A stretch of 24,766 nucleotides of DNA, taken from a virus. Position numbers and translations under genes: made by a program. The stretch lies in IMG/VR virus record IMGVR_UViG_3300042922_000953, positions 1 through 24,766 of that record; one strand, written 5' to 3'. Below are positions 4,002 through 17,308 of this stretch, one piece after another. How positions within the stretch are numbered: the first letter of the stretch is position 1; the number at the start of each line of letters is the position of its first letter. The notes under the pieces are model-generated. The model saw nothing but the letters and a program-made list of their open reading frames with translations. It had not been told where the DNA came from and ran no database searches.

Positions 4002-4916
4002 ATGAATTTCATATATGAAGGTAAAGACATTACAAATAACATTGATATAAATAAAGCTAACATAATTGAAAATTCAGGTACTTATATTGATAACATAATT
4101 GCACATGTTAATAATTCTGTTAATGAATGGAGCGAATGGAAGCCTAAGAAAAATGACAAATTAGAACTAAAGCAAGATGGATTTACTTCAGGTACCATGT
4201 TTATTGATGAGATTCTTCAGAAAAAAGCATTGGTAATACTTAAAGCACTTCCTATTAAGCAGCAAGACAAACAAACATACACTAAAACATGGGAAAATAT
4301 TAGGCTTAATGAATTGCTCAATGAATTTGCTTCAAAGCATGGGCTAACATTAAAAACATACAGTACTGAGAATTATTTATATTCAAAGCTAAATCAAATA
4401 AACCAGTCTGATTTTGCTTTTCTTTGTCAATGCTGTGCTATGGAAGGGTATGTACTTAAATTGTTAAATAACGAATTAATTGTTTACAATGAAAAATACA
4501 TGGAAAGCATTTCAAGTGGCATTGTTATTGATTCATCAGAGGTTAAAGATGGAGACTTTGAATATAAAGATAAGTCAGATGAAGTATATAGTGGTTGTAA
4601 TGTACTGGATGGAAATATAAATTATACTTTCACGGCACCGGGAGTTGTAGGACCTATACTAAATGTTAGAGATATAATGATTAATGATTTAGCTGAGGCT
4701 CAAAGATTTGCAAGAAACTTTCTAAGAAACAAGAATAAGTTTGAAAGAACATTGGTATTTCAGAAGAATTTAGATACTAACATTACAGCTGGGAACACTG
4801 TTGAAGTCAAGAATTTTGGTCTTGCTGATGGCAGATACTTTATTTATCAGGCAAAACATATGCTTGTCAATAATATAACTGAACTAAAGTTAAGAGGTGT
4901 TGTGGAGGGCTATTAA
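4002..4916 (+). CDS. Baseplate hub protein gpD-like (late control D / VgrG-Pvc8 family)
   Basis: This 304-aa protein matches P2 gpD and related hub proteins that link the tail tube to the spike. It begins with a short beta segment, has a central NELLNEFASKHGL stretch and a DFAFLCQCCAMEGY-like segment typical of the family, and ends with the beta-rich region that contacts the tube. GAGGTGA lies upstream. Its stop overlaps the next start (TAATG). The P2 name 'late control' is historical; the structural role is the established one. Confidence 0.85.
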   Translation: MNFIYEGKDITNNIDINKANIIENSGTYIDNIIAHVNNSVNEWSEWKPKKNDKLELKQDGFTSGTMFIDEILQKKALVILKALPIKQQDKQTYTKTWENIRLNELLNEFASKHGLTLKTYSTENYLYSKLNQINQSDFAFLCQCCAMEGYVLKLLNNELIVYNEKYMESISSGIVIDSSEVKDGDFEYKDKSDEVYSGCNVLDGNINYTFTAPGVVGPILNVRDIMINDLAEAQRFARNFLRNKNKFERTLVFQKNLDTNITAGNTVEVKNFGLADGRYFIYQAKHMLVNNITELKLRGVVEGY

Positions 4917-5110
4917 TGACTAAACAAGGAATAGTAACAAGTAAAAGCAATGGCAAATGCAGAGTCTTAATTAAAGATTTAAATTATGAAACAGGGCTAT
5001 TGCCTATTGCAACACACATTGATTATGAAACCCTGAACATTGATGATAATGTCGTTATAGCATTCTTTAATACTCAGCAAACTCAAGGTGCTGTAATAGC
5101 TAAAATTTAA
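4916..5110 (+). CDS. Small baseplate spike-like protein (gpV OB-fold type)
   Basis: This 64-aa protein is mostly beta strands (GIVTSKSNGKCRVLI, DNVVIAFFN, QGAVIAKI), consistent with a minimal OB-fold like the N-terminal part of gpV or gp5 spike proteins. It is coupled to the hub gene by a TAATG overlap, which supports a hub-spike pairing. It lacks the extended beta-helix needle of P2 gpV, so it may be only the adapter of the spike. The family is assigned from context and strand pattern only. Confidence 0.55.
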   Translation: MTKQGIVTSKSNGKCRVLIKDLNYETGLLPIATHIDYETLNIDDNVVIAFFNTQQTQGAVIAKI

Positions 5111-5123
5111 GGCAGGTGATTTT

Positions 5124-5723
5124 ATGTACATTGCTACATGGGGAAATAAGGGATTTACTGTCAGCTTAGAAAAAATAATAAGCTTTGACGACCTTGAAAT
5201 GACATCATCTATTAATACAGAAAAATTGGACAACGAAGGGAAAAAACCAAGCACATATAAAAAAGGAATCAATTTAGATACATTAACATTAAAAGTTACT
5301 ATAGATTCTAATTTTGGGACGACACCGGAAATACAGTATAATCAATGGATGGATGAATTAAAAAAACAAATACCATGGCCATTTTTAATAAAAGGCAAAC
5401 CACTAAACAATACAAAATACTTATTAACTAAAGTACAGCCTATAAACAATAAATATGATAACGCAGGTAATTGGCTAACTACAACGCTTTATCTTGAATT
5501 TGAAGAGTTTGTAGCAGAAGGAACACCAGCTGCAGAGACAAATAGCACAGGCCCGATTGCAACATCTTCAAGTCCAAGTAATGCACCAAGCACCAGCTCA
5601 GTTTATGAAGTATTAAAACCAAAAGACAAAGCTGCATTGAAAATTGAGTCAAAGGCTTCCAGAGATTATAGAACGTATAAAAGTCCTGTTATAGATTTTG
5701 CCAGGACTCAGTTAGGAGGTTAA
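5124..5723 (+). CDS. gpU-like tail protein with C-terminal extension
   Basis: This 199-aa protein has about 130 N-terminal residues resembling P2 gpU: a GNKGFTVSLEKIISFDDLE opening, a K(N)L-LTL strand pair, and a NAGNWLTTTLYLEFEEFV strand pair. After it comes a Ser/Thr/Pro/Ala-rich linker (about residues 132-160) and a short C-terminal region (KPKDKAALKI). In P2, gpU acts in tail completion. Here it sits between spike and gp25 genes, unlike in P2, so a baseplate role is also possible. The extension and linker are unusual for gpU. Confidence 0.55.
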   Translation: MYIATWGNKGFTVSLEKIISFDDLEMTSSINTEKLDNEGKKPSTYKKGINLDTLTLKVTIDSNFGTTPEIQYNQWMDELKKQIPWPFLIKGKPLNNTKYLLTKVQPINNKYDNAGNWLTTTLYLEFEEFVAEGTPAAETNSTGPIATSSSPSNAPSTSSVYEVLKPKDKAALKIESKASRDYRTYKSPVIDFARTQLGG

Positions 5724-6028: not shown

Positions 6029-7140
6029 CAATTAATTTTGTAGAGACAGATCCTAAAAAAATATATGATGACATTATAATTAATTTTCAAAATGCATTAA
6101 AGAAGGTATTATACCCTGGCGATGAAAGAAGGATATTTTTAGAACAGGAAACAGCTGTGATTGTTTCATTATATAATGCAATTAATGAAAGTGCTAAACA
6201 AAACCTTTTAAGATTTGCTAAGGGAGAAATACTTGATGCAATCGGCGAAGATAGAGATACAGCAAGATTAGAAGCACAGAAAGCTACTGTAACTATAAGA
6301 TTTACACTTTCATCTGTAAGGTCTGAAAATATAGTAATTCCATCTGGAACGAAAGTCACACCAGATGGTTTATTGTTTTTTGAGACTACAGCTGAAAATA
6401 TCATATATCCAGGAAATACATATAAAGACATTGCGTGCACTGCAACTGTAGCAGGAACAAAGCATAATGATTTAATAGCTGGTCAAATAAATACTCTTAC
6501 AGAACCTATAGCATTTGTTTCTTCAGTATCTAACACAATAACTAGTAGTGGTGGAAGCGAGAGGGAATTAGATGATAATGGGATTGATGTGTGGAGTGGT
6601 TACAGATTAAGAATAAGATTAGCAAAAGCTAAAATATCAACGGCAGGTCATGAGCTAGGATATATATATTATGCTGAATCAGCTGATCCAAACATAGAGG
6701 ATGTTTCGGTAACTTCACCAAGCGCTAATGAAATACTTATTACAGTATTGATGAATGATGGAGAACTTCCAACCCAAGATATATTAGATAAGGTTTTAGC
6801 TGCATGTTCGCCTAAAAAAGTAAGGCCTTTAACAGATCATGTAACTGCAAGTGCTCCTACTGTTGTAAATTATAATATTACAGCAACATATTATATTAGT
6901 CCTGACAAAGCATCCGAAGTATCTAATATAACTTCAGCTGTGAATAATGCAGTTGAGGAATATAAAAAGTGGCAAGGAACAAAAATTGGAAGAGATATTA
7001 ATCCGGATGAATTAAGGAAACTAATGTTCAATGCAGGTGCAAGCATTGTAGATTTAACATATCCGGCATTTACCATTTTAAGCGATACGGAAGTAGCAAA
7101 AGTAGGAATAACAACAATAACATACGGCGGTCTTAAGTAG
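6025..7140 (+). CDS. Baseplate J protein (gpJ)
   Basis: This 371-aa wedge component connects the baseplate core to the tail fibres. It shows typical gpJ patterns: a helical N-terminus (LRFAKGEILDAIGEDRDTARLEA), a SGTKVTPDGLLFFET beta segment, an AGTKHNDLIAGQINTL segment, and a C-terminal KKVRPLTDHV segment. The start is TTG within TTGA, after a run of GGTGG repeats acting as the ribosome binding site. The length is normal for the family. Confidence 0.92.
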   Translation: MTINFVETDPKKIYDDIIINFQNALKKVLYPGDERRIFLEQETAVIVSLYNAINESAKQNLLRFAKGEILDAIGEDRDTARLEAQKATVTIRFTLSSVRSENIVIPSGTKVTPDGLLFFETTAENIIYPGNTYKDIACTATVAGTKHNDLIAGQINTLTEPIAFVSSVSNTITSSGGSERELDDNGIDVWSGYRLRIRLAKAKISTAGHELGYIYYAESADPNIEDVSVTSPSANEILITVLMNDGELPTQDILDKVLAACSPKKVRPLTDHVTASAPTVVNYNITATYYISPDKASEVSNITSAVNNAVEEYKKWQGTKIGRDINPDELRKLMFNAGASIVDLTYPAFTILSDTEVAKVGITTITYGGLK

Positions 7141-7149
7141 GTGAATATG

Positions 7150-7704
7150 ATGAAATTAAAAGAAATTGATTTATTAAAGATTCAGACATCCTATATGAGA
7201 ACTGATGAAACTACAATTGCACTATGCAAAACATTAAATGCCGAACTAAACAAAATAGATCCTAGCAAATGCTTAATAATGTATAACATTGACACATTAT
7301 CAGAGGAAATTTTAGATGAGATTGCTATCTCAGAGAATATTTTCTGGTATGACTCTCAAGCAACTATTGAAATCAAAAGGGAGATAATCAAGAATGCTGA
7401 TGAAGTGTTTACATATTTAGGAACTGCTTATTCTGTGGAAAGAGTTGTGGCAGACTACTTTGGAGATGGTGAAGTAGTTGAATGGTTTAACTATTCAGGA
7501 ACACCAGGTCATTTTAAAATATACACATCAAATACAGATGCTACAGCTGCAATGGTTGAACAATTTTACAGAGCTATAGCGTTAATTAAAAGGAAGAGTG
7601 CTGTATTAGATGAAGTCGTTGTAAACATGGTCGAAAATTACAACTTAATAAATGGATTCGCCTTACATATTGGTGATTCTATGACATTACAACAAGTGGG
7701 GTGA
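7150..7704 (+). CDS. Tail protein I (gpI-like)
   Basis: This protein of about 184 aa matches the P2 gpI family, a wedge protein that joins gpJ and the tail fibre. The LSEEILDEIAISENIFWYDS and KREIIKNADEVFTYLGTAYSVERVV segments and the GHFKIYTS strand are characteristic. In-frame starts are GTG 7141, ATG 7147 and ATG 7150; AGGTG at 7139-7143 is best spaced for ATG 7150. It overlaps the start region of the fibre gene. Confidence 0.88.
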   Translation: MKLKEIDLLKIQTSYMRTDETTIALCKTLNAELNKIDPSKCLIMYNIDTLSEEILDEIAISENIFWYDSQATIEIKREIIKNADEVFTYLGTAYSVERVVADYFGDGEVVEWFNYSGTPGHFKIYTSNTDATAAMVEQFYRAIALIKRKSAVLDEVVVNMVENYNLINGFALHIGDSMTLQQVG

Positions 7705-7709
7705 TATGT

Positions 7710-9440
7710 GTGAGTTTTAATAATATTAAATTTACAACTAAAGGTAGAAATCTTCATGCAAAGGCTCAGATAGGAGCTGCTTTAAATTTTACTAGAATAG
7801 CAATAGGTGATGGTGATAACGGTGGTGCTTCATCAGATGCTTATTCTGCTTTATTAAATCAGATTCACAGTATGAACATTACTAAATTAAAACCAACTAG
7901 TAATGGAACTGCAATAGTCGGAGGAGTATTTAATAACTCAGGTCTTCCGGCTTTCTATTTGCGAGAAATAGGTTTATTCGCAATGGATCCTGATTTGGGG
8001 GAAATTCTTTATTGTTATGGGAATGCCGGAGCAAATGCAGAACATATTCCTGAAGGTGGAGGCAGCACAATTCTTGAAAGAGAATTGAATATAATTGCAA
8101 CTGTTGGTAATGCCACTAGTCTTACAGCAAATATTGATTACAGTATGTACGCCACAATGGAATTTACTCAAAATGAAGTTGCAACACATGATACAAATGC
8201 CGAATCACACGCAGATATCAGGGAACGTATTATCTCTTTGGGAGCATACGCAGTAGCAAGCGGAACAAATACTTATATTGCTTCAATTGAAGGTATAACA
8301 GCATTAACAGAAGGTTTTGGAGTTAAAATTAAATTTACAAATGCAAACACTGGAGCAAGTACTCTAAATATTAATAATTTTGGAGCTAAACAAATTTTAA
8401 AGGGCAATGGTAGTGCTTTAACTAGTGGAAATATTAAAGCAGGACAAATATGCAACCTTGTTTATAATGGCCTAAATTTTCAGTTATTGGGTGAGGGAGG
8501 TGAATACGGAACAGCCCAAGCCCAACATGTCTTAGACAATTATACAATAGGAACTGAAAGCGGTTTGATTGAAGGTACCATGCCAAATAACGGACCAGCT
8601 GTGGCTGAAACAGTAAATCTTACAAATCATAATCAGGAATACACCATAGCACAAGGATCTCATTCCGGACTTAGAAAAATAAAAGCTGTTATAACTAATC
8701 TTGCTGCAGGGGTAATTAAAGCAGGAGTTACTGTCGGAGGCATCTTAGGAACTTTCACTTCTGATGCTACAGCAACAGCGGCTCAAATGTTAGCTGGTGC
8801 TAAGGCTTATGTTAATGGGGTTCTTGTAACTGGTACGATACCAAGCAAAGGAGCTCAGACATATACTCCAGGAACAACAAATCAGACAATATCCGCAGGG
8901 CAATATTTGAGTGGGATTCAAACTATTGCTGGTGATGCTGATTTAATTGCTGCTAATATTGCTGCAAACAAAAATATATTTAATGTTGTGGGTACATATA
9001 CAGGCATTAAGAGCATTCAAACCATGATAATACAAAGTGCTGGGGCAAAGACAATTACAGGTGTTGTACCTAATAATACCATAATAATTTATCAGGAGTA
9101 CAACCAACAAAATAATGATGAGTGGAACATAACCTTAACAAATTCAACAACTTTAACTGTTAGTGGTACACCTGCATATGGAATGGCTATAATAATAGAA
9201 TTTGAATATGGTGTAATAAAATCAAAACAGAGAGTCACTATTGGTTCGAGCGTGGCTTATAATGCAACTGTTACGATTTCATCTGTAGACCCTGAAAAAT
9301 GCATTGTATTACAAATGTCAGCACACCATGGTAGTATTTTATACAGTACAGTAGGAAAGGTTACTGCTGCAACGACATTGACTGTGTGGAGGTCACATTC
9401 TTCATGGGTAGACTACTTAGAAGTTATTGAATTTTATTAA
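7710..9440 (+). CDS. Tail fibre / collar fibre protein
   Basis: This protein of about 576 aa starts with a baseplate-binding domain of the tail-collar fibre type (FTTKGRNLHAKAQIGAALNFTRIAIGDG). It continues with repeat-like segments around residues 250-430 (AGVTVGGILGTFTSDATATA and AGAKAYVNGVLVTGTIPSKG) and ends in an Ig-like or lectin-like beta C-terminus. Fibre tips usually bind the host receptor. GTG 7710 is preferred over GTG 7701 because GGGGTGAT sits at proper spacing and gives the family-typical MSFNNIKFTTKG start. Repeat-rich shafts of this type are common in clostridial phages. Confidence 0.88.
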   Translation: MSFNNIKFTTKGRNLHAKAQIGAALNFTRIAIGDGDNGGASSDAYSALLNQIHSMNITKLKPTSNGTAIVGGVFNNSGLPAFYLREIGLFAMDPDLGEILYCYGNAGANAEHIPEGGGSTILERELNIIATVGNATSLTANIDYSMYATMEFTQNEVATHDTNAESHADIRERIISLGAYAVASGTNTYIASIEGITALTEGFGVKIKFTNANTGASTLNINNFGAKQILKGNGSALTSGNIKAGQICNLVYNGLNFQLLGEGGEYGTAQAQHVLDNYTIGTESGLIEGTMPNNGPAVAETVNLTNHNQEYTIAQGSHSGLRKIKAVITNLAAGVIKAGVTVGGILGTFTSDATATAAQMLAGAKAYVNGVLVTGTIPSKGAQTYTPGTTNQTISAGQYLSGIQTIAGDADLIAANIAANKNIFNVVGTYTGIKSIQTMIIQSAGAKTITGVVPNNTIIIYQEYNQQNNDEWNITLTNSTTLTVSGTPAYGMAIIIEFEYGVIKSKQRVTIGSSVAYNATVTISSVDPEKCIVLQMSAHHGSILYSTVGKVTAATTLTVWRSHSSWVDYLEVIEFY

Positions 9441-9890: not shown

Positions 9891-10844
9891 ATGGCAACAT
9901 ATGTGGAACTACTTGAAAATGATTTTGCGAGGCAAATTGAATTTTTAAATATAAAAAAATATCATGAGCATGGCTTTAAAGGTAATGGAATCACAATATT
10001 AAACGCTGAATCTATAGGAGATCATAGAGAGATGACATCAAAAGTCATAAGAGACTTTGCCCCAGAAGTTACGCTGCTGGAAAGCTTGATATCAGCAAGA
10101 ACCAGCGGAGATAAGGTGCTAGAAGCAACTGTAACTATTAACGGAGAAAAACTTGACTTTGAAAAAGCTATTGATAAATATAATATCAAAATTGTTTCAA
10201 GATCATATTCCGGCTCATCTTCATCTGCATTTCTTAATTACTTGAAAGACATCCAAAAACGTAAGGGTGTTATTTTTTTCTGTTCTGCAGGAAACGAAGG
10301 AGTAGAAGGTGTAACAGGTGTATATGCAAAAGATGATACAGCTATTGCTGTTGGAGCTGCTAGGTTAAAAGAAAATGGCACAGTCGAAAGAATGTACTAT
10401 AGTGCAATTGGTGAAGAACTTGACTTTATGTGTTTCATGGCACGTGGAACAGGGACAAGCGCAGCAAGTCCGGCATTGGCAGCTATAACGGTATTACTAT
10501 TACAACGATATGGGGACTTTAACCAGGAAGAATGTATGGAGGTCTTAAAATATTGTTGTGTAGATTTAGGTGAACCTGGCGATGATAATTATTTCGGCTG
10601 GGGAATACCGGTATTACCATTGACAGATAAATTAGAAATTTTAGAAAAACTGAGAGGTGAGGAAATGCCACAATTTAAAGATGTTGAAGACACTAGATGG
10701 AGTAAAGAAGCGATTGATTGTTTGGTTGCACGTGGTGAATTAAAAGGATTTGAGGATGGTACCTTTAGACCTAGTGAACCACTAACAAGAGAACAATACG
10801 CTCAAGCAAGATATAATCAGTTAAAATTAGAAGGGAGAATATAA
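9891..10844 (+). CDS. S8 (subtilisin-like) peptidase with C-terminal SLH domain
   Basis: This 317-aa protein starts at ATG 9891 after GGAGGTG. Its S8 domain (about 25-245) has His45 (GDH), the oxyanion Asn135 (SAGNEG) and the nucleophile Ser190 (GTGTSAASPA). The strand that normally carries the catalytic Asp (V-x-D-T/S-G) reads ILNAES, so Asn38 or Glu40 stands there; activity is therefore uncertain. Residues 260-317 form an S-layer homology domain (FKDVEDTRWSKEAIDCLV, GFEDGTFRPSEPLTREQ). No signal peptide is visible. The gene lies between fibre and holin, so it may be a virion-associated or lysis protein acting at an S-layered surface, or may degrade S-layer protein. It overlaps the holin start by one base. 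Confidence 0.85.
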   Translation: MATYVELLENDFARQIEFLNIKKYHEHGFKGNGITILNAESIGDHREMTSKVIRDFAPEVTLLESLISARTSGDKVLEATVTINGEKLDFEKAIDKYNIKIVSRSYSGSSSSAFLNYLKDIQKRKGVIFFCSAGNEGVEGVTGVYAKDDTAIAVGAARLKENGTVERMYYSAIGEELDFMCFMARGTGTSAASPALAAITVLLLQRYGDFNQEECMEVLKYCCVDLGEPGDDNYFGWGIPVLPLTDKLEILEKLRGEEMPQFKDVEDTRWSKEAIDCLVARGELKGFEDGTFRPSEPLTREQYAQARYNQLKLEGRI

Positions 10845-11335
10845 TGGGAGACAACTTTAACGAAATAAAGACTACTTTAGTAGGTGTAATTGCCGTAATA
10901 TATGCTTTCTTAGCAAATATATTCGGAACTTTTACACCTTTGTTAATTATCACTTTGGTCGCTATGCTCGCGGATCTATTCACTAGAATTTACGCTGCAG
11001 CTGTAAGACCAGATGAACGACCAGAAAGTAAGAAAGTATTAATTGGTATATATAAAAAAATAGGAATGTGCATGCTTATTGTTTTGGCTTTAATGGTAGA
11101 CATAGCTTTATCTGTAATGGCTAATTTAATAGGTATAAATATTGTAAGCAAAATAATAGTTACAGCACTAGCCATGGCTTACATCCTTGTTAGAGAATTA
11201 ATTTCTAATGCAGAAAATCTGCAGCATGCCGGGATAGAATTGCCACCATTTATTGTGAAAATACTAGGAATTGCTAAAGAAAAGATTGATAATGCTGGGG
11301 ATGCAATTATAGGTGGTGGTGATACAAGTGATTAA
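10844..11335 (+). CDS. Phage holin (toxin secretion/phage lysis holin family)
   Basis: This 163-aa membrane protein has about three to four hydrophobic segments (roughly residues 11-28, 30-45, 73-91 and 97-114) and a charged C-terminus, matching the Holin_4 type common in Clostridia. It forms the timed membrane lesion that releases the endolysin. A TAATG overlap couples it to the upstream peptidase, and its 3' end overlaps the endolysin start, as in a compact lysis cassette. Confidence 0.88.
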   Translation: MGDNFNEIKTTLVGVIAVIYAFLANIFGTFTPLLIITLVAMLADLFTRIYAAAVRPDERPESKKVLIGIYKKIGMCMLIVLALMVDIALSVMANLIGINIVSKIIVTALAMAYILVRELISNAENLQHAGIELPPFIVKILGIAKEKIDNAGDAIIGGGDTSD

Positions 11336-11912
11336 ATTCAAGGTCAACCCTACCAGCAATCAACGTATAACATCAGAATTCGGCAAGAGAGAATTTGCAG
11401 GCATGCAATTTCATAGCGGAATAGACTTTGGGGCTAACGAACCTGGAGTAGAAGGTGACGAACTTTATGCTGTAGCAGATGGAACAGTAAGAATATCAAA
11501 AGTTGATAGCGGAAATATCAATGTTGGTTATGGTAATTACATAATTATAGAGCATGATGATTATTGCACATTGTATGCCCACTTACAGAATCTTGAAATC
11601 AAGGTTGGTGAGAATGTAAAAGCTGGACAAGTAATTGGTCATATGGGGAATACTGGAGAGTCTACTGCTACGCATCTACATTTTGAATTAAGAAACTGTG
11701 GATATTCAAATCCTTACTTTTGGACTAAAGGAAATTATAAAGGTCAGTTTCTGATGTGTATTAACCCTATTAATTATTTCATCAAACCACATTGGGCTGA
11801 AGAGCATAAGTTGAGTTTGGATGGCAAGGGAATTGTGATTAACGACACAAGATATGATGACTTCATGACGCGTGGAGAAGTGTTTGCATTATTAGATAGA
11901 ATTGTAAAGTAA
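11328..11912 (+). CDS. M23 endopeptidase endolysin with SLH-like C-terminus
   Basis: This 194-aa lysin cuts peptide cross-bridges of peptidoglycan. The LytM/M23 zinc site is complete: His29 and Asp33 (FHSGIDFG), His85 (YAHL), and His116-x-His118 (THLHFE). The C-terminal 40 residues (about 155-194), with TRGEVFALLDR, resemble the end of an SLH repeat and probably bind the wall. GTG 11328 is preferred, because GGTGGTGAT lies just upstream; GTGs at 11313 and 11316 are alternatives. There is no signal peptide, which fits holin-dependent release. Pieces of the 3' end of this gene recur at 15414-15536 and 16684-16716. Confidence 0.9.
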   Translation: MIKFKVNPTSNQRITSEFGKREFAGMQFHSGIDFGANEPGVEGDELYAVADGTVRISKVDSGNINVGYGNYIIIEHDDYCTLYAHLQNLEIKVGENVKAGQVIGHMGNTGESTATHLHFELRNCGYSNPYFWTKGNYKGQFLMCINPINYFIKPHWAEEHKLSLDGKGIVINDTRYDDFMTRGEVFALLDRIVK

Positions 11913-11940
11913 CCAGGTATATTTGCCTGGTCTTTTTTTT
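11912..11940 (+). terminator. Intrinsic terminator of the late operon
   Basis: ACCAGG (11912-11917) pairs with CCTGGT (11926-11931) and is followed by CTTTTTTTT. It starts at the last base of the endolysin stop codon. Related hairpins occur at 15535-15562 and 16711-16749. Confidence 0.9.
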
Positions 11941-11979
11941 ATTTCCATTAATAGATTTATAAGAGTATATAAATAGTAG

Positions 11980-12008
11980 TTGTAAATTGTAAAATATTGT
12001 CATATAAT
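11980..12008 (+). promoter_or_regulatory. Putative promoter of the three-gene cassette
   Basis: TTGTAA (11980-11985), a 17-base spacer and TATAAT (12003-12008) follow the late terminator. The -10 lies two bases from the GGAGGGG ribosome binding site, so transcription would start within that site. A second, weaker pair, TTTCCA-N18-TATATA beginning at 11942, would give a normal leader. The cassette thus probably has its own transcription in the lysogen, but which promoter is used is unclear. Confidence 0.5.
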
Positions 12009-12025
12009 TGGAGGGGATATATAAT

Positions 12026-12730
12026 ATGAATGTAGGTGAAAATATGGCTGCTCAAAGTATTTTAATGTACAAATTTAAGCTTTTGCAGATTAAACCAATA
12101 GATACAATAGTTTCAAAGATCGAAGAGTATTTTCAACAAGACGAGAAATTTATAATTGATTTTTATAATCAAAATCAAGTCGAGGGCGCTTATATATATT
12201 TAAATAATTATAGGGAAAATGTTTTCGATTATGATACAAATACTTTTAAGTTAGTTAATGTATCTAGTACTATTGTCACAAAATTCAATATAGATTTACT
12301 TAATAGTATTCTTTATATATGGGGAAGTAAAAAAACAGCATTAAGAATAACAGCAGCATTTTCATTAATATTTCAGAATAAAATAATTTTAGAACCAAAT
12401 GATATAATTTTTAAAAAGTGTTTAAAATTTCTAGAAGAAGAAAAGAACATAATTGTGTGTAATACAAAAATTGATGACATTATATTTGAAACTGATTTAG
12501 TTGCTACATGTACTATTAATCTTGCATTATACTCTAATCCATTTGAAATTTTAAACAAATATATTGATAAAATCTCTAAAGTTACTGTAATTTTAGGTCC
12601 TGATAGTGACAATGTTTCAATTAGTATTTACCAATCAGGTTCTATTGTAATTTATAAAAATCGAGAGCAATTGTCAGAAAAAGCATCAGCATTTGTAAAG
12701 GATTTACTAATTGCATCAAGGAGGGAATAA
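12026..12730 (+). CDS. Unrecognised cargo protein A (three-gene cassette)
   Basis: This 234-aa protein starts at ATG 12026 after GGAGGGG. No family was recognised. It is a mixed alpha/beta, Ile/Lys/Asn-rich soluble protein with no clear membrane segment or signal peptide. It has a central helical part (TALRITAAFSLIFQNKIIL) and a beta C-terminus (KVTVILGPDSDNVSISIYQSG). It is separated by two bases from the nuclease-like gene, which has its own AGGAGGG site, so they form one operon. By eye the cassette is more AT-rich than the tail genes, a sign of separate origin. It may be a sensor, inhibitor or partner of the nuclease; this is inference from the operon only. Confidence 0.75.
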   Translation: MNVGENMAAQSILMYKFKLLQIKPIDTIVSKIEEYFQQDEKFIIDFYNQNQVEGAYIYLNNYRENVFDYDTNTFKLVNVSSTIVTKFNIDLLNSILYIWGSKKTALRITAAFSLIFQNKIILEPNDIIFKKCLKFLEEEKNIIVCNTKIDDIIFETDLVATCTINLALYSNPFEILNKYIDKISKVTVILGPDSDNVSISIYQSGSIVIYKNREQLSEKASAFVKDLLIASRRE

Positions 12731-12732
12731 TA

Positions 12733-13692
12733 ATGGGAGAAAACGCGCCAAAAATAGGCAAAAAACTTGAATCATTTGGATGGAATTTGTTTGGTTTGTT
12801 TAATTGGAAATTAAAAATGAAGGATAAACAAATAAATTGTGTCAGAAGTGCTCATAAGAGTAAAGGTGATAAGGATAAAAAGACACATGGGGTAGACATT
12901 TATCTTGAATACGAAGATCCTTATATAAATAAGGTACAAGGTGTATTTATTGAATGTAAAAATAGACAATGGGTGTCTATAAATAGTTCTAATATTGAAG
13001 AATGGATAGATGAATTAATTAACACGATGGAATGTGCTATTTATGATCAAGAATTAAATGGGTATTATGCAGAAAATAGCGATAAGCATTGTGGCCTGCT
13101 CCTAATAAATACTAATGATGGTAAATTTAATAAAACTAAATTTTACAATTACATTGAAAATGTTACTTATAAAAATAAAAGAATGCCGATAAAGGTATTT
13201 ATTGCTGGAAATGACATGATAAACAAATGGTGGGCTATAGATAATATTAATGCCACTGATTATAATAGAAACTTACAATATATATATTTAAGTATTAATA
13301 ATTCTAGACCAGTTAAAAACAAATGCTTAAGCATAAACCATCTTTATTCTAAATATATTTTCTGTGAGTATGAGTATAAGAAGGAGAGTATTGAAGGGGA
13401 TGAGAAGGTAATACGTACAAGAAGGAAAATGGTAATATTTTGCTTTGATAAAATCTGTAGAGAAAGCTTCAATTATCTGTGGAGTATTTGTAGGTTTTAC
13501 CAATCTGAAAATAATTATAAGGAGTATGATATATGCTTTTTTCCAGAAAGCAGTATAGATACTACCATGGTTAAAGAAGATTTTATGAATATACTAAAAA
13601 CATATGAAAAAAGTATAGAGCCTGATATTTTAAAAAATATTAATGTAAAATTTCTGCAAAACAGAGATTTAGCGGTTGTAGAAAACCAATAG
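12733..13692 (+). CDS. PD-(D/E)XK nuclease-like cargo protein B
   Basis: This 319-aa protein has an N-terminal restriction-endonuclease-like core: a helix with Glu13, then HGVDIYL with Asp55, then VFIECKNR with Glu74-x-Lys76. The spacing fits the E/D-ExK site of Mrr-like and Holliday-junction-resolvase-like folds. A helix follows the core (about 86-103), as usual. The rest, about 110-319, matches no domain I recognise and may sense or bind a partner. The gene lies second in a three-gene operon inside a phage cargo hotspot, a typical place for defence or superinfection-exclusion genes. The fold call rests on the motif alone; target and activity are unknown. Confidence 0.65.
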   Translation: MGENAPKIGKKLESFGWNLFGLFNWKLKMKDKQINCVRSAHKSKGDKDKKTHGVDIYLEYEDPYINKVQGVFIECKNRQWVSINSSNIEEWIDELINTMECAIYDQELNGYYAENSDKHCGLLLINTNDGKFNKTKFYNYIENVTYKNKRMPIKVFIAGNDMINKWWAIDNINATDYNRNLQYIYLSINNSRPVKNKCLSINHLYSKYIFCEYEYKKESIEGDEKVIRTRRKMVIFCFDKICRESFNYLWSICRFYQSENNYKEYDICFFPESSIDTTMVKEDFMNILKTYEKSIEPDILKNINVKFLQNRDLAVVENQ

Positions 13693-13707
13693 TGGGGTAT
13701 AAATTAT

Positions 13708-14772
13708 ATGATAACAAAATATGTTGATAACAAAGAGTTAAAAAGAATTGTTGACGAAGGTAATTTAAAACTCTATAAAGTTAAAAGTGTGTTGAAAAAA
13801 AGAGGTGTATTACTAACTTCTACTAGTTCAAATATTGTAGCTGAACAAATGTATCCGATTTTATGGGGAATATTGGATATGTCAGAATTTAAAGATTCTA
13901 TAGATGATTCTAACAACTATATTAAATCATCATTAATAGAGATAAATTGTAAATCAGAGAACGAAATTATTGATACTGTTGAATCTGCTTTTACAATGTC
14001 TAACTATATGAAAAAGCAATATTCTTTTGACTCAATGTGTAGAGATAATAATAATTTAAGTATGAGATTAAAATACCCGAAAAGCAAAATAGGTAAGAAT
14101 GAATTAATGTCTATTCAAGATAAATACGTTGATATCTTTGTGAAAAAAATAAGTGAAAATAAAGCTATCTTTGATATAAGACAAGCATCTTCAAATGAAA
14201 TGAAAGATGTAAATAAATTTTTAAATGAAGTTTTAATTGAGAATAATGAGCTGAAAATGCGCCGTATAAATTTAGGTAACTTAACTAATGAAAATCGAAT
14301 AGATTTTTTTGATAAATTGAACCTTCACAACTTTAAAGAATGGACATTTTTAACAGTAACTAAAATGGAATTAAAGAAAAACGAAGCAAATGATGATGAA
14401 GAAGTAACCCTGGACGAAGATGAATCAAATGAACAAGCATTAGGAAATTTGAGGGGTATAACAAGTGCTATTGTTAATGGTACAAGTATTAGAACTAATT
14501 CTTTCGTACAAGAGTGTTTGAAAAATCAATTTTCAATAGCGACTATGGGATATAAATATCAACATAAAACGGAATTAGTTAAAGTAATTATTGAAATCAA
14601 CTTTAAATATGATGACATTAAAATTGATATTAGTAAAACCTATGAATATGATGATACTGAAAAAAAAGAAAAGGCTCACCCTTTAATGCTAAGCCGACAA
14701 GAAGATATAATTAAAAGCTTTCAAGATGTCGCTTATAATATATATGAAGAAATTATTAGTAACCAAAAATAA
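13708..14772 (+). CDS. Unrecognised cargo protein C (three-gene cassette)
   Basis: This 354-aa protein is the last gene of the cassette, 15 bases after the nuclease-like gene and with a weaker GGGGT site. It has no recognised family. The N-terminus (VLKKRGVLLTSTSSNIVAEQ) is compact; the middle is helical; an acidic, probably disordered linker (about 225-243) separates a C-terminal beta-rich domain (VKVIIEINFKYDDIKIDISKTY). No membrane segment or signal peptide is visible. Two terminators follow it (14787-14884). The two-domain form with an acidic linker would suit a binding or specificity subunit, but this is speculative. Confidence 0.75.
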   Translation: MITKYVDNKELKRIVDEGNLKLYKVKSVLKKRGVLLTSTSSNIVAEQMYPILWGILDMSEFKDSIDDSNNYIKSSLIEINCKSENEIIDTVESAFTMSNYMKKQYSFDSMCRDNNNLSMRLKYPKSKIGKNELMSIQDKYVDIFVKKISENKAIFDIRQASSNEMKDVNKFLNEVLIENNELKMRRINLGNLTNENRIDFFDKLNLHNFKEWTFLTVTKMELKKNEANDDEEVTLDEDESNEQALGNLRGITSAIVNGTSIRTNSFVQECLKNQFSIATMGYKYQHKTELVKVIIEINFKYDDIKIDISKTYEYDDTEKKEKAHPLMLSRQEDIIKSFQDVAYNIYEEIISNQK

Positions 14773-14786
14773 ATCATTAAATTAAT

Positions 14787-14826
14787 AGGGCAGACCATAC
14801 ACAAAGTGAAGGTATCTGCCCTTTTA
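14787..14826 (+). terminator. Terminator of the three-gene cassette (first)
   Basis: AGGGCAGA (14787-14794) pairs with TCTGCCCT (14815-14822), followed by TTTAATTT. It lies 14 bases after the stop of cargo protein C. Confidence 0.75.
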
Positions 14827-14852
14827 ATTTAACTTTATCCACAAAGGATTTC

Positions 14853-14884
14853 AGCCAGCGCTTTTGCGAGTGGCTTTTGTTTTA
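14853..14884 (+). terminator. Terminator (second, tandem)
   Basis: AGCCA-g-CGC, a TTTT loop, then GCG-ag-TGGCT, followed by TTTGTTTT. Together with 14787-14826 it isolates the cassette from what follows. Confidence 0.6.
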
Positions 14885-14916
14885 TTATATGCTTGTACTG
14901 TATATGCGTGACATAA

Positions 14917-14974
14917 TAAAAACTGGAGAAAGTACTCCAGCTTATTGGGGATTGGTTATCGGGGGAAGACAACC
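14917..14974 (-). ncRNA. Candidate small RNA (about 57 nt)
   Basis: Reading leftward, a promoter (14981-15009) predicts a start near 14974. The transcript would end at a hairpin CTGGAG (14940-14935) / CTCCAG (14928-14923) followed by a TTTTTATT tract. The short RNA has two C-rich unpaired stretches, CUUCCCCC and AAUCCCC, like the seed regions by which Gram-positive sRNAs bind Shine-Dalgarno sequences. No ORF with a ribosome binding site fits inside. The hairpin may also serve as terminator of the leftward gene 15018-15257. Confidence 0.4.
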
Positions 14975-14980
14975 TTTTAC

Positions 14981-15009
14981 ATTATAACAGTGTTGTAAAA
15001 GTTTGACAA
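14981..15009 (-). promoter_or_regulatory. Leftward sigma-A-type promoter
   Basis: On the minus strand TTGTCA (15009-15004), a 17-base spacer and TATAAT (14986-14981) make a near-consensus promoter. It sits directly after the stop of the leftward small ORF, so it can only serve the short stretch before the hairpin at 14923-14940. Confidence 0.6.
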
Positions 15010-15017
15010 GCTAAAAT

Positions 15018-15257
15018 CTACCACTTAAATAGATACCAAGTATTTTTCTTGATTTCATACTTCAATTCATAAATGTTGCATCCGTTATGCTGACATACAA
15101 ACATTAGGTTATTGCATCCAAAGTTCTTATCTTCGTATGTTTTTAAAATTCTTTGAACCATTATAATCTGATCTTCAAACCAGAGTTTCACCGGCTCGAT
15201 TTTGCCGTCTTTATTAAATATGGCCAAAACCTTTATAGGCTCATTTACTATTTTCAT
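15018..15257 (-). CDS. Small conserved protein (79 aa), intact copy
   Basis: ATG at 15257 follows AGGTGATG at good spacing; an earlier in-frame start is less likely. The 79-aa product (MKIVNEPIKVLAIFNK, ending WYLFKW) has alternating strands and helices and three Cys. I do not recognise a family. A second, inactivated copy lies at 16741-16977, and close similarity over the whole length, including the start context, shows this is a real gene. It is transcribed opposite to the cargo cassette and lies between it and the endolysin remnant. Confidence 0.75.
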   Translation of the reverse strand: MKIVNEPIKVLAIFNKDGKIEPVKLWFEDQIIMVQRILKTYEDKNFGCNNLMFVCQHNGCNIYELKYEIKKNTWYLFKW

Positions 15258-15312
15258 AATCATCACCTGATACTAGAATTTCTTGAAGCTTTTGAATAAA
15301 TTTAAATGAAAG

Positions 15313-15363
15313 TTATTTCGACTGCCTAGCGTTTATGCCTGTTGACTTTTCAATGAAATAACT
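15313..15363 (-). pseudogene. Remnant of the 3' end of an HTH regulator gene
   Basis: Minus-strand bases 15345-15313 encode STGINARQSK and a stop, matching the STGINTRTTK end of the intact HTH protein (17048-17269) in length and stop position. Upstream bases align for about 15 nt more with a small insertion, then similarity fades. As with the intact gene, it lies a short way (about 55 bp) beyond the start of the small ORF, so the pair small ORF-HTH was once present here too. Confidence 0.5.
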
Positions 15364-15413
15364 TGTGTAAACTTTAATTTCTTAACTAAACAGTACTTTA
15401 GAAACGAGTGCTA

Positions 15414-15536
15414 CACTGGGATGAAGAGTATAAGTTGAGTTTAGAAAGCCAGGATATCGTGATTAAAGATACCAGATATGAAGACTTCATGACACGTGGA
15501 GAACTATTTGCGTTATTAGATAGAATAGTAAAGTGA
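15414..15536 (+). pseudogene. Endolysin 3'-end remnant (copy B)
   Basis: Bases 15414-15536 encode 40 residues plus stop, matching the C-terminus of the M23 endolysin (residues 155-194) at 31 of 40 positions by eye, without frameshift. The difference is too large for a recent duplication, and many base changes are synonymous, so the piece probably came from a related phage's endolysin. There is no catalytic domain upstream. It is followed by the same type of terminator as the full gene. Confidence 0.85.
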
Positions 15537-15562
15537 CCAGGTAATTATGCCTGGTCTGTTTT
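15535..15562 (+). terminator. Terminator attached to endolysin remnant B
   Basis: GACCAGG (15535-15541) pairs with CCTGGTC (15550-15556), followed by TGTTTTAA. It is homologous to the terminator at 11912-11940. Confidence 0.75.
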
Positions 15563-15806
15563 AATGAAGTTTTTTAATATGAGTCTCATCATAATTACTT
15601 ATTATTTTTATTGTACGTGGGCTATGCTCTTGCATCTTAAGATAGTTCTTTTTTATTAATAGTTGTATATGGCAATATATCGTACTTACAGAATCTCTAT
15701 TTGTTAATGTTGCTATCTCCCTATATGTAGGAGGATAGCCGTAAGTTTTGGTGTAATTATCAATGCACTTCATAACTTCAAATTGAGCATTAGTTAAATA
15801 CTTCAA
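15561..15806 (-). CDS. LexA DNA-binding-domain-only regulator
   Basis: This 81-aa protein matches the winged-helix N-terminal domain of LexA: LTNAQFEVMKCIDNYT, then YGYPPTYREIA (Pro25-Pro26-Thr27), the recognition helix DSVSTIYCHIQLL, and the wing ending SPRTIKI. The S24 peptidase half with its Ser-Lys dyad is missing, so it cannot cleave itself in the way LexA does. The start is TTG with GGAGG 7 bases upstream. It is divergent from the Dam-type methylase, and a LexA-type palindrome lies within its own promoter, so it probably represses itself and perhaps the methylase. Confidence 0.8.
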   Translation of the reverse strand: MKYLTNAQFEVMKCIDNYTKTYGYPPTYREIATLTNRDSVSTIYCHIQLLIKKNYLKMQEHSPRTIKIISNYDETHIKKLH

Positions 15807-15839
15807 ATTATGTCCTCCAGAATTGTCAGCTATGACTAT

Positions 15840-15868
15840 ATTATATCAGAACAAATGTTCGAAGTAAA
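15840..15868 (-). promoter_or_regulatory. Promoter of the LexA-like gene with embedded SOS-type operator
   Basis: On the minus strand TTTACT (15868-15863), a 17-base spacer and TATAAT (15845-15840) form a promoter. The spacer holds the perfect palindrome GAACAAATGTTC (15849-15860), which fits the Gram-positive LexA box CGAAC-N4-GTTCG except for one outer base. A bound LexA-like protein would block RNA polymerase. Confidence 0.75.
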
Positions 15869-15880
15869 CACCTTTTTGCT

Positions 15881-15909
15881 ATTTTCAATATAAAAACAAG
15901 AGGATATAA
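15881..15909 (+). promoter_or_regulatory. Putative promoter of the methylase gene
   Basis: TTTTCA, a 17-base spacer and TATAAT lie just upstream of the GAGGTGATG ribosome binding site. The leader would be very short. The -35 is weak. The LexA-type palindrome lies about 20 bases upstream of it. Confidence 0.35.
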
Positions 15910-15927
15910 TTATATTGAGGTGATGAA

Positions 15928-16683
15928 ATGGACAGTTTTTTAAGTTGGATAGGAGGGAAAAAGCTATTAAGAAAAGAAATAGTTAATAGATTTCCTAACA
16001 AAATAGACAGGTATGTAGAAGTGTTTGGCGGGGCAGCATGGGTATTATTTTATAAAGATAGACATGCAAACTTTGAAGTATACAATGATTATAATTCAGA
16101 GCTGGTAAATATATTTAGATGTGTAAAATATCATAGAGAAGAATTGCAAAGAGAATTAAATTATTTTCTAAATTCTAGGGAAATGTTTCAAGACTATTTA
16201 ACCCAATATAAGACCAGAGGAATGACAGACATACAAAGAGCTGCAAGATATTTTATGTTAATTAAAACTTCATACGGAAGTAAAGCAAGTACATACGGAT
16301 GTGTAAAAAAAGATACATCAAAATATATCAATTATCTTTCAGATATACAAAATCGGCTAAGATCAGTTGTAATAGAAAACAGAGATTTTGAAAAAATTAT
16401 TACTACATATGATAGAGAAGGTACTTTGTTTTATTTAGATCCACCATACTATGGTACGGAAAACTATTATAAAGAGGTAGATTTCACTATTGATGATCAT
16501 GAAAGATTAAAGCAAGCATTAGACAATATTTGTGGTAAATTTATATTATCATATAATGATTGCCCAGAGATAAGAGAGTTATACAAGGATTACAAAATTG
16601 AAGAAATTAAAAGAAATAATAATTTGACTTCGAGATATAGCAATGCAGAAAAAGGGTTTAGTGAATTGGTAATTACTAATTAA
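15928..16683 (+). CDS. DNA adenine methyltransferase, D12 class (Dam/DpnM-like)
   Basis: This 251-aa enzyme transfers a methyl group from S-adenosylmethionine to N6 of adenine in DNA. The SAM-binding motif is the N-terminal FLSWIGGKKLL with VEVFGGAAWV following, and the catalytic motif is Asp171-Pro-Pro-Tyr174 (DPPYY). The length is a little short but complete. No restriction endonuclease is next to it, so it is an orphan; phages use such enzymes to hide their DNA from host restriction or to time gene expression. Its stop codon directly abuts the third endolysin remnant at 16684. Divergence from the LexA-like gene suggests DNA-damage or autorepressor control. Confidence 0.9.
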   Translation: MDSFLSWIGGKKLLRKEIVNRFPNKIDRYVEVFGGAAWVLFYKDRHANFEVYNDYNSELVNIFRCVKYHREELQRELNYFLNSREMFQDYLTQYKTRGMTDIQRAARYFMLIKTSYGSKASTYGCVKKDTSKYINYLSDIQNRLRSVVIENRDFEKIITTYDREGTLFYLDPPYYGTENYYKEVDFTIDDHERLKQALDNICGKFILSYNDCPEIRELYKDYKIEEIKRNNNLTSRYSNAEKGFSELVITN

Positions 16684-16716
16684 GTGTTTGCGTTGTTAGA
16701 TAAGATTGTTAATAAA
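16684..16716 (+). pseudogene. Endolysin 3'-end remnant (copy C)
   Basis: Bases from 16684 encode VFALLDKIVNK in the position of the endolysin's VFALLDRIVK; the stop codon has become AAA. It begins directly after the methylase stop codon and is followed by a matching terminator. Only about 11 codons remain. Because of the short length the relation rests mainly on the shared terminator next to it. Confidence 0.75.
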
Positions 16717-16749
16717 CCAGGCTTAATTTGCCTGGTTTATTTATTTTTT
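16711..16749 (+). terminator. Terminator attached to endolysin remnant C
   Basis: AATAAACCAGG (16711-16721) and CCTGGTTTATT (16731-16741) form a perfect 11-bp stem with a T-rich tail (TATTTTTT). It is related to 11912-11940 and 15535-15562 and now terminates the methylase gene. Confidence 0.85.
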
Positions 16750-16977
16750 GTACATGTACCAGATATTACTTTTAATTTCATATTTCGATTCGTAAATAGA
16801 GCTTCCCTTATGTTGGCACACAAACATCAAGTTATTGTTTCCAAAATTCTTATCTTCATAAATTCTCAATATCTTTTCTACAATGACCTGCTCATCCTCG
16901 TACTAAAACTTCACTGGCTCTATTTTTCCCTTTTCAAATATGGCCATAACCTTAATGGGTTCATTTAAAATTTTCAT
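16741..16977 (-). pseudogene. Inactivated copy of the small conserved ORF
   Basis: Minus-strand bases from ATG 16977 to TAA 16743-16741 read as the 79-aa protein at 15018-15257 throughout (MKILNEPIKVMAIFEK, then EDKNFG and LMFVCQH), with one residue fewer. Codon 25 is TAG (16905-16903) where the intact copy has the Trp codon TGG. No frameshift is present, so inactivation looks recent, unless a downstream start or read-through is used. The ribosome binding site (AGGTGATG) is kept. Confidence 0.8.
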
Positions 16978-17047
16978 ATCATCACCTAAAAACACAATAT
17001 CATAAATTTAGAAAAACACTAGCCTTTTAAATGCGTTTTAAGCAAAG

Positions 17048-17269
17048 CTATTTAGTTGTGCGAGTGTTTATACCTGTTGAGAATGACACGACTTCACCTA
17101 TATCAACATTTAAAAAATCACATACTTTTTCTAATGTATACAAACTTACTGATTTATCATTTCTTAATTTCACTCCCATGTCTGGACTTAATCCAGTGCC
17201 ATCAATTAATTTTTGCCATGTAATTTCTCTGTCTACTAATAATAATCTTAATTTTTTATAACTTATCAT
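17048..17269 (-). CDS. Small HTH (Cro/CI-type) regulator
   Basis: This 73-aa protein is nearly all helix-turn-helix: YKKLRLLLVDREITWQKLIDGTGLS, then a recognition region MGVKLRNDKSVSLYTLEKVCDFLNVDIGEVVSF. It resembles the small XRE proteins (HTH_26 type) of phages and conjugative elements. ATG 17269 has GGAGGTG eight bases upstream; the longer frame to 17302 has no such site. It is divergent from the FtsK-like operon, and palindromes lie in the space between, so it likely regulates that operon and itself. Confidence 0.85.
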   Translation of the reverse strand: MISYKKLRLLLVDREITWQKLIDGTGLSPDMGVKLRNDKSVSLYTLEKVCDFLNVDIGEVVSFSTGINTRTTK

Positions 17270-17308
17270 TTGTATAACACCTCCACAAACATCGTAACAC
17301 AAAATTGT

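Follow-up and report, generated by a model that had tools for sequence, protein, structure and literature searches.

Remnants of displaced endolysins as probable boundaries of stacked cargo layers in a viral record

The viral record IMGVR_UViG_3300042922_000953, whose 24,766 bases were analysed in full and are called the window here, carries three copies of an endolysin 3' end with its hairpin terminator: one in an intact gene (copy A) and two in short remnants (scars B and C), each standing before a different set of genes. We consider it probable that this region is a stack of three segments, each running from the lysis genes to the attachment site (att), that came from related temperate phages (one relative lies in Sedimentibacter) and were joined off register. 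Judged from sequence, the scars appear to be remnants of displaced endolysins that mark the cargo layers.

Three copies of one endolysin 3' end

A preliminary description of the window had claimed that the endolysin 3' end and its terminator occur three times in the same orientation, and BLAST bore this out: copy B matched copy A with 84% identity over 150 nucleotides (nt; E 1.3e-42) and copy C matched it with 79% identity (E 9.5e-11), both in the same orientation. A self-BLAST of the whole window gave only three pairs below E 1e-8, namely A/B, A/C and the two small open reading frames (ORFs), which were 74% identical over 235 nt. The remnants described, 40 codons in frame at B and 11 codons at C, were both found; the 11 of C include the old stop, since turned into a sense codon (GTA AAG TAA in A, GTT AAT AAA in C). 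About a quarter of the residues of B had been said to differ without loss of frame, and 9 of its 40 do differ from A; scar B carries a 42-codon ORF. Perhaps a repeat of this kind had misled the assembly? A and B agree without a mismatch over at most 14 nt in a row, which makes a false join by the assembler at this repeat unlikely.

The small ORF and the helix-turn-helix (HTH) gene that follow scar C had also been credited with counterparts before scar B. Besides the pair of small ORFs, we observed a 3'-end piece of an HTH gene to the left of B, with a weak but real match to the end of the intact HTH gene (64% over 90 nt of 17024-17113, E 8e-4) and a match of 68% over 125 nt (E 2e-9) to the same flank in the relative L070. 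Small ORF 2 is interrupted by an in-frame stop, which the description lacked. The features are listed below, with layers numbered as in the proposed stack.

11313..11912, plus strand: intact M23 endolysin of layer 1 (Pfam PF01551, E 2.4e-28); its C-terminal tail, 11784-11912, is copy A
11912..11931, plus strand: hairpin terminator of copy A (terminator scan; fold -12.3 kcal/mol)
12008..14772, plus strand: three-gene cargo, with genes 2 and 3 GapS4a/GapS4b-like (NCBIfam NF047933, NF047934)
15018..15266, minus strand: small ORF 1, which anchors layer 1 on the right (56% to its counterpart in L009)
15289..15391, minus strand: 3'-end piece of an HTH gene with flank, resembling the small-ORF flank of L070 (DNA matches)
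15392-15413: presumed joint of layers 1 and 2, directly after the HTH piece
15413..15562, plus strand: scar B, 40 in-frame endolysin codons and hairpin, where the L004-like block begins (BLAST, L004 alignment)
15561..15806, minus strand: protein with a LexA-type DNA-binding domain, convergent on the scar B hairpin (PF01726, E 2.5e-13; 93.1% nt identity to L004)
15849..15860, no strand assigned: LexA-box-like site GAACAAATGTTC in the spacer that separates dam from the LexA-like gene; L004, L056 and L033 have a matching site in this spacer
15928..16683, plus strand: D12-class adenine DNA methyltransferase, Dam-like (PF02086, E 8.6e-32; 89.0% nt identity to L004)
16682..16749, plus strand: scar C, 11 endolysin codons including the lost stop, and a 12-pair palindromic hairpin
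16741..16980, minus strand: small ORF 2, with the in-frame stop inside
17048..17302, minus strand: HTH_26 protein (PF13443, E 1.7e-11; 50% to the L009 HTH protein)

To the right of the HTH gene lie an FtsK-like gene, then a weak Replic_Relax match, then a serine recombinase.

The cargo of scar B stands behind an intact endolysin in a relative

Relatives of the tail were collected with endolysin queries and tail patterns. Nine distinct records with an intact tail formed the close group (profile score of at least 109 bits, duplicates merged). One of them, L004, has an intact M23 endolysin with the LexA-like/Dam pair directly behind it. Window positions 15414-16682 aligned with L004 10475-11741 as a single block of 1269 nt at 88.7% identity, whereas the lysis region upstream of that block was only 72.4% identical between the two. 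The left edge of the block falls within the endolysin gene of L004. Displacement of an endolysin is therefore a better account of scar B than tandem copying, because the block begins inside a gene that L004 keeps intact.

Within the block, identity was 83.3% in the tail codons, 93.1% in the LexA-like gene, 84.2% in the spacer and 89.0% in Dam. Hence, the codons of scar B behave like spacer (83.3% versus 84.2%). The nonsynonymous divergence (dN) of B from functional tails was 0.104 to A, 0.086 to L004 and 0.121 to L005, against 0.053-0.059 among A, L004 and L005; the tail of L006 was equally divergent, at 0.105-0.117 from the same three. The B codons look unconstrained, though weakly so, 40 codons being too few for firmness. 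At the terminator, B agreed with L004 at 28 of 31 positions and with A at 25 of 32, which favours L004. We conclude that the terminator and the continuous block carry the case for a putative L004-type origin of B and that the tail codons alone do not decide it.

L004 has a scar of its own, a second and frameshifted copy of the tail behind Dam. When the linker is included, this copy agrees at 79.8% over 208 nt with the L079 endolysin, which is of the Amidase_2 class, and at 73.2% over 153 nt with the resident M23 gene of L004. The peptide of the linker scores 118-130 with four endolysins of the Amidase_2 class and 57 with two of the M23 class. Since its closest relatives are Amidase_2 and the resident enzyme is M23, this scar derives from another endolysin class than the gene before it. 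A further case is L056. Its Amidase_2 endolysin does not end in this tail and is accompanied by a Holin_LLH gene; there follow the small ORF, then a scar that retains about 10 codons, the stop and the hairpin, and finally the LexA-like gene with Dam, the latter truncated by the contig end. From the scar through the pair, its identity was 89.7-91.5% to the window and, across 289 nt, 94.1% to L004. Over 5000 nt, L056 and G030:C165 do not differ (G030 belongs to the same family as the genome G001), and the two were counted as one case. The block shared with L004, the Amidase_2-class scar and L056 together uphold the earlier claim that the scars are pieces of related phages' endolysins and not tandem copies. 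The pattern that was to speak against it, remnants closest to their own upstream gene in every genome, is not what L004 and L056 display.

Other relatives display the exchange of endolysin parts around this tail. L009 gave the same matches as L016, which bears the name Sedimentibacter acidaminivorans, and the two are presumably the same prophage. The tail of copy A is common to the Amidase_2 endolysins of L009, L078, L079 and L080. L079 (9180-10684) aligned with window 10508-11953 in the upstream genes and in the tail and terminator, with a different catalytic domain (Amidase_2 versus M23), which looks like a domain swap above a shared C-terminal tail. The tail genes of L070 (10014-12732) were 95.6% identical to window 6210-8928, yet its endolysin is Amidase_3 and its cargo is other; recent module swapping is the likely cause. 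In L008, an M23 endolysin ends in an SLH domain instead, with Dam directly behind. A more distant LexA-like/Dam pair (49% and 44%) in the same divergent layout was seen in L033 (genome G010, 4341-5434 and 12070-12186), some 7 kb downstream of an endolysin whose tail is related.

How might such a stack arise? The plan of the group, judged from several relatives, would be a lysis module, often a cargo slot, and finally, close to the att end, a small antisense ORF that is conserved. At least twice in this lineage, to go by the joints, the 3' end of the resident endolysin would have received, off register, a segment with its own endolysin and cargo. The resident gene would thereby be cut off, while its last codons, its terminator and everything behind them would be kept, and the old cargo would be retained beneath the new. 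The layers would then be copy A with the GapS4-like cassette and small ORF 1, scar B with the LexA-like/Dam pair, and scar C with small ORF 2 and the HTH gene.

Alternatively, the LexA-like/Dam cassette could have brought along a left-hand homology arm made of an endolysin tail with its terminator, and been inserted between small ORF 1 and scar C, in which case the left layer would not be newer. From tail B to the Dam stop, the sequence is indeed one unit in both L004 and the window, and the tail, being common at the DNA level to endolysins with differing catalytic domains, could act as such an arm. However, insertion by tail homology should place cargo directly behind an intact endolysin and not behind a small ORF and HTH piece, and the sequence before B resembles the small-ORF flank, not an endolysin, to within about 20 nt of B. 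We regard a cargo-borne arm as unlikely and prefer the off-register joining of lysis-to-att segments.

The joints point to illegitimate exchange

The preliminary description had attributed the stack to successive homologous exchanges in the conserved endolysin end. This part of it was not supported. The scars start at different places: that of L004 in the amidase linker, B at the first of the 40 tail codons, and C and the L056 scar at about codon 31. The sequence to the left of the scars is not endolysin; at B, the likeness of the HTH piece to the small-ORF flank of L070 extends to 15391 and leaves about 20 nt before the scar. Only C permits a comparison with both presumed parents; there the stop of Dam abuts endolysin codons, and 1-3 nt, as counted by eye, are common with those parents. 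None of the seven genes scanned from 12008 to 17302 codes for a recombinase. Because the starts differ, only 1-3 nt are shared and the scanned genes include no recombinase, we read the joints as off register and non-homologous, neither homologous nor site-specific. We conclude that the exchange was more likely illegitimate than homologous.

The scars at 16682 (C) and at L056:7576 stand in different contexts and begin within a few bases of each other, at about codon 31 of 40. This near-coincidence may be chance. Could it instead mean that modules integrate at the endolysin 3' end and restore it, as islands do at the 3' ends of tRNA genes? Each module is, after all, bounded by direct repeats of a gene 3' end. 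But scar lengths and breakpoints differ, and the longest exact runs are 14 nt for A-B, 11 nt for A-C and 8 nt for B-C, so that the joints have no constant core. With no recombinase among the genes scanned from copy A to the HTH gene either, we rejected site-specific accretion, to which we give very little probability.

The hairpins probably serve convergent genes

The terminator scan, which called 6 terminators in the window versus 1.3 in shuffled sequences, called the scar B hairpin on both strands. The hairpin of scar C, where the stop codon is lost, is a 12-pair palindrome with almost the same energy on the two strands (-17.6 and -17.5), the strongest of the three window copies; the scan called it on the plus strand alone. 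Hairpin B is where the LexA-like gene ends, and hairpin C is where small ORF 2, convergent with Dam, ends. The hairpins were probably retained as shared terminators of these convergent genes; in the proposed stack they would survive by ending transcription both of the convergent gene and of the gene before them.

Perhaps, then, the hairpins are merely terminators of the small ORF or the LexA-like gene, and the link to an endolysin is incidental? L070, L071 and L072 do carry CCAGG-type hairpins at the 3' end of the small ORF without tail codons. This reading leaves unexplained the 40 in-frame endolysin codons of B, which refute it for that scar, and the roughly 10 codons of C; we hold it to be highly improbable. 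Cargo might also have been inserted after the phage had duplicated the end of its own endolysin in tandem, for which one could cite the 84% likeness of A and B in the same orientation and tail codons of B that are as near to A as to L004. This was rejected as the least probable account of all, given the run of B into an L004-like block, the Amidase_2-class scar behind an M23 gene in L004, and the L056 scar that has no matching endolysin of its own.

More tentatively, the endolysin 3' end with its near-palindromic terminator may be a preferred landing zone, at which cargo, defence genes included, could be added without loss of the old. The hairpin would then isolate the layers, and the remnants would be a layered, datable record of phage encounters and of their sequence in time.

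A cargo slot between the lysis genes and a small antisense ORF

In the window, L009, L070, L072 and L076, the lysis module is followed by differing genes and then by the small antisense ORF; L074 has little between the lysis genes and the small ORF. Content thus varies between conserved flanking genes, as in a hotspot. The small ORF stands to the right of cargo or lysis genes in L009, L056, L070, L072, L074, L076 and the window. Since a Glu/Gln-type tRNA-synthetase gene, presumably the host's, starts about 1.1 kb beyond the small ORF in L076, the slot lies near the att end there. The position beside attR (the right att) given in the preliminary description is in this way supported indirectly, through relatives.

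What does the slot hold? Cassette gene 2 matched the GapS4a model NF047933 (E 1.9e-17, 63.5 bits against a curated cut-off of 270) and gene 3 matched the GapS4b model NF047934 (E 1.5e-11, 43.7 bits against 300). Neither window protein reaches its curated cut-off, and by their sequences the two would be distant relatives of the GapS4a/GapS4b anti-phage proteins. By eye, gene 2 contains what looks like a PD-(D/E)XK-like motif. Scans of Pfam, defence, PHROGs and NCBIfam-type libraries gave no convincing family for gene 1. No relatives of gene 2 were found in phages or in viral contigs, where only close relatives were sought, and none of gene 3 in the 249 genomes of G001's order, a search run without a positive control. 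For GapS4, the best matches listed in the open-access literature were unrelated papers only. Behind the endolysin, L004 has a type I methyltransferase (1083 bits) and L006 a weak PD-T4-9_A match (3.7e-6); no small ORF was found at either locus. The slot between the lysis genes and the small ORF holds variable cargo, part of which may be defence-like.

The small ORF had no match in Pfam, PHROGs or NCBIfam. Its homologues lie directly downstream of a Y-family (dinB-type) polymerase gene in all four chromosomal loci viewed (L105-L108), and 83 of the 249 genomes of G001's order have a match. It thus appears to be a phage-borne member of a dinB-linked family of small genes. The bases after the hairpins of L004, L005 and L006 were considered as small-ORF ends, which profile search did not support. 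L079 carries a small-ORF 3' remnant at about 12419-12505 on the minus strand, 1.8 kb behind the endolysin and the only one besides the window among the segments searched; hence, 3'-end remnants are not limited to endolysins.

LexA-box-like sites were present between the LexA-like gene and Dam in all four records checked (window, L004, L056 and L033), upstream of the small ORF in four of eight relatives checked (L009, L072, L075 and L076) and near the start of the polymerase gene in three of the four chromosomal loci. Mononucleotide shuffles gave about 2 matches per window by chance. The placement of these sites suggests SOS-linked control.

The scars appear uncommon

Seven of the nine close records have an intact tail with at least 1 kb downstream: the window, L004, L006, L009, L078, L079 and L080. 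Behind the endolysin of L006, we observed a hairpin-like remnant without codons, 85% identical over 40 nt to A and 81% identical over 47 nt to the L004 scar. A protein search with the tail found 22 places in 16 of the 249 genomes of G001's order, only one of them an open frame as short as 75 residues; this search is blind to short scars and missed the G030 scar, which a DNA query found. The DNA query matched in 10 of the 249 genomes. Scars appear uncommon.

Several observations weigh against the stacking of displaced segments. Coding scars occur in two of the seven records, the window (two) and L004 (one); L056, which has no intact tail, adds one more, making three phages only. Four of the seven had no second tail match better than E 6, and the tail profile does not list the hairpin-like remnant of L006. 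Every scar came from a search that used this tail, and the clustering of breakpoints there is therefore partly ascertainment. L004 and L056 are viral contigs that bear metagenome-type names. The preliminary description had asked for a relative that matches B or C better than A and carries the same cargo; L004 supplied the cargo behind an intact endolysin, but not the closer tail (103 of 124 tail positions shared with B, against 104 for A). The order of the layers, with the left layer newest, is our inference from the arrangement. No parent with the three-gene cassette was found. Finally, the cargo of L009 (two library scans) and of L070, L072 and L076 (one scan) matched no defence family in the libraries tried.

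Comparison with known systems

Phage mosaicism and cargo hotspots are themselves already known; a stack with traceable scars appears to be a new variation on them, and among the best matches in the open-access literature no title dealt with remnants of endolysin 3' ends that bound cargo. The joints are visible here, L004 keeps the presumed arrangement before joining, and the outcome is addition, not replacement. Terminator-bound endolysin 3' ends without an endolysin could be a simple search handle for layer boundaries and candidate defence genes.

The region resembles the lysin-attR conversion (moron) region of phages of low-GC Gram-positive bacteria, where additional genes occupy the space from the endolysin to the right att end; in the part of the source considered, a Lactococcus prophage has an abortive-infection gene between lysin and attR (PMC3757294). 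Unlike that region, the window has boundaries that bear endolysin 3'-end scars and so reveal the addition of layers. In Streptococcus prophages, a hot spot of recombination beside variable cargo is marked by paratox (prx), a small conserved ORF located at the end of the prophage, according to the section of PMC6224593 considered. The window likewise has a small conserved att-proximal ORF next to cargo, but this ORF is a dinB-linked homologue, the cargo is partly defence-like, and the joints appear off register and additive where the paratox account, as far as that section goes, has clean replacement.

The P2/P4 hotspots place variable genes, defence systems included, between two conserved anchor genes, and the portion of that 2022 paper considered leaves the recombination pathway of cargo turnover open (PMC9122126). 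The window shares the variable cargo between conserved anchors; its anchors are the endolysin and the small ORF, and, unlike the cargo in that portion, its cargo is stacked with traceable scars. Endolysin genes are swapped between phages, and domain-level mosaicism is cited for mycobacteriophages in the passages of PMC9371310 considered. As in that modular mosaicism, catalytic domains change over a shared tail here; unlike what those passages describe, in the window the 3' end left behind marks a cargo boundary.

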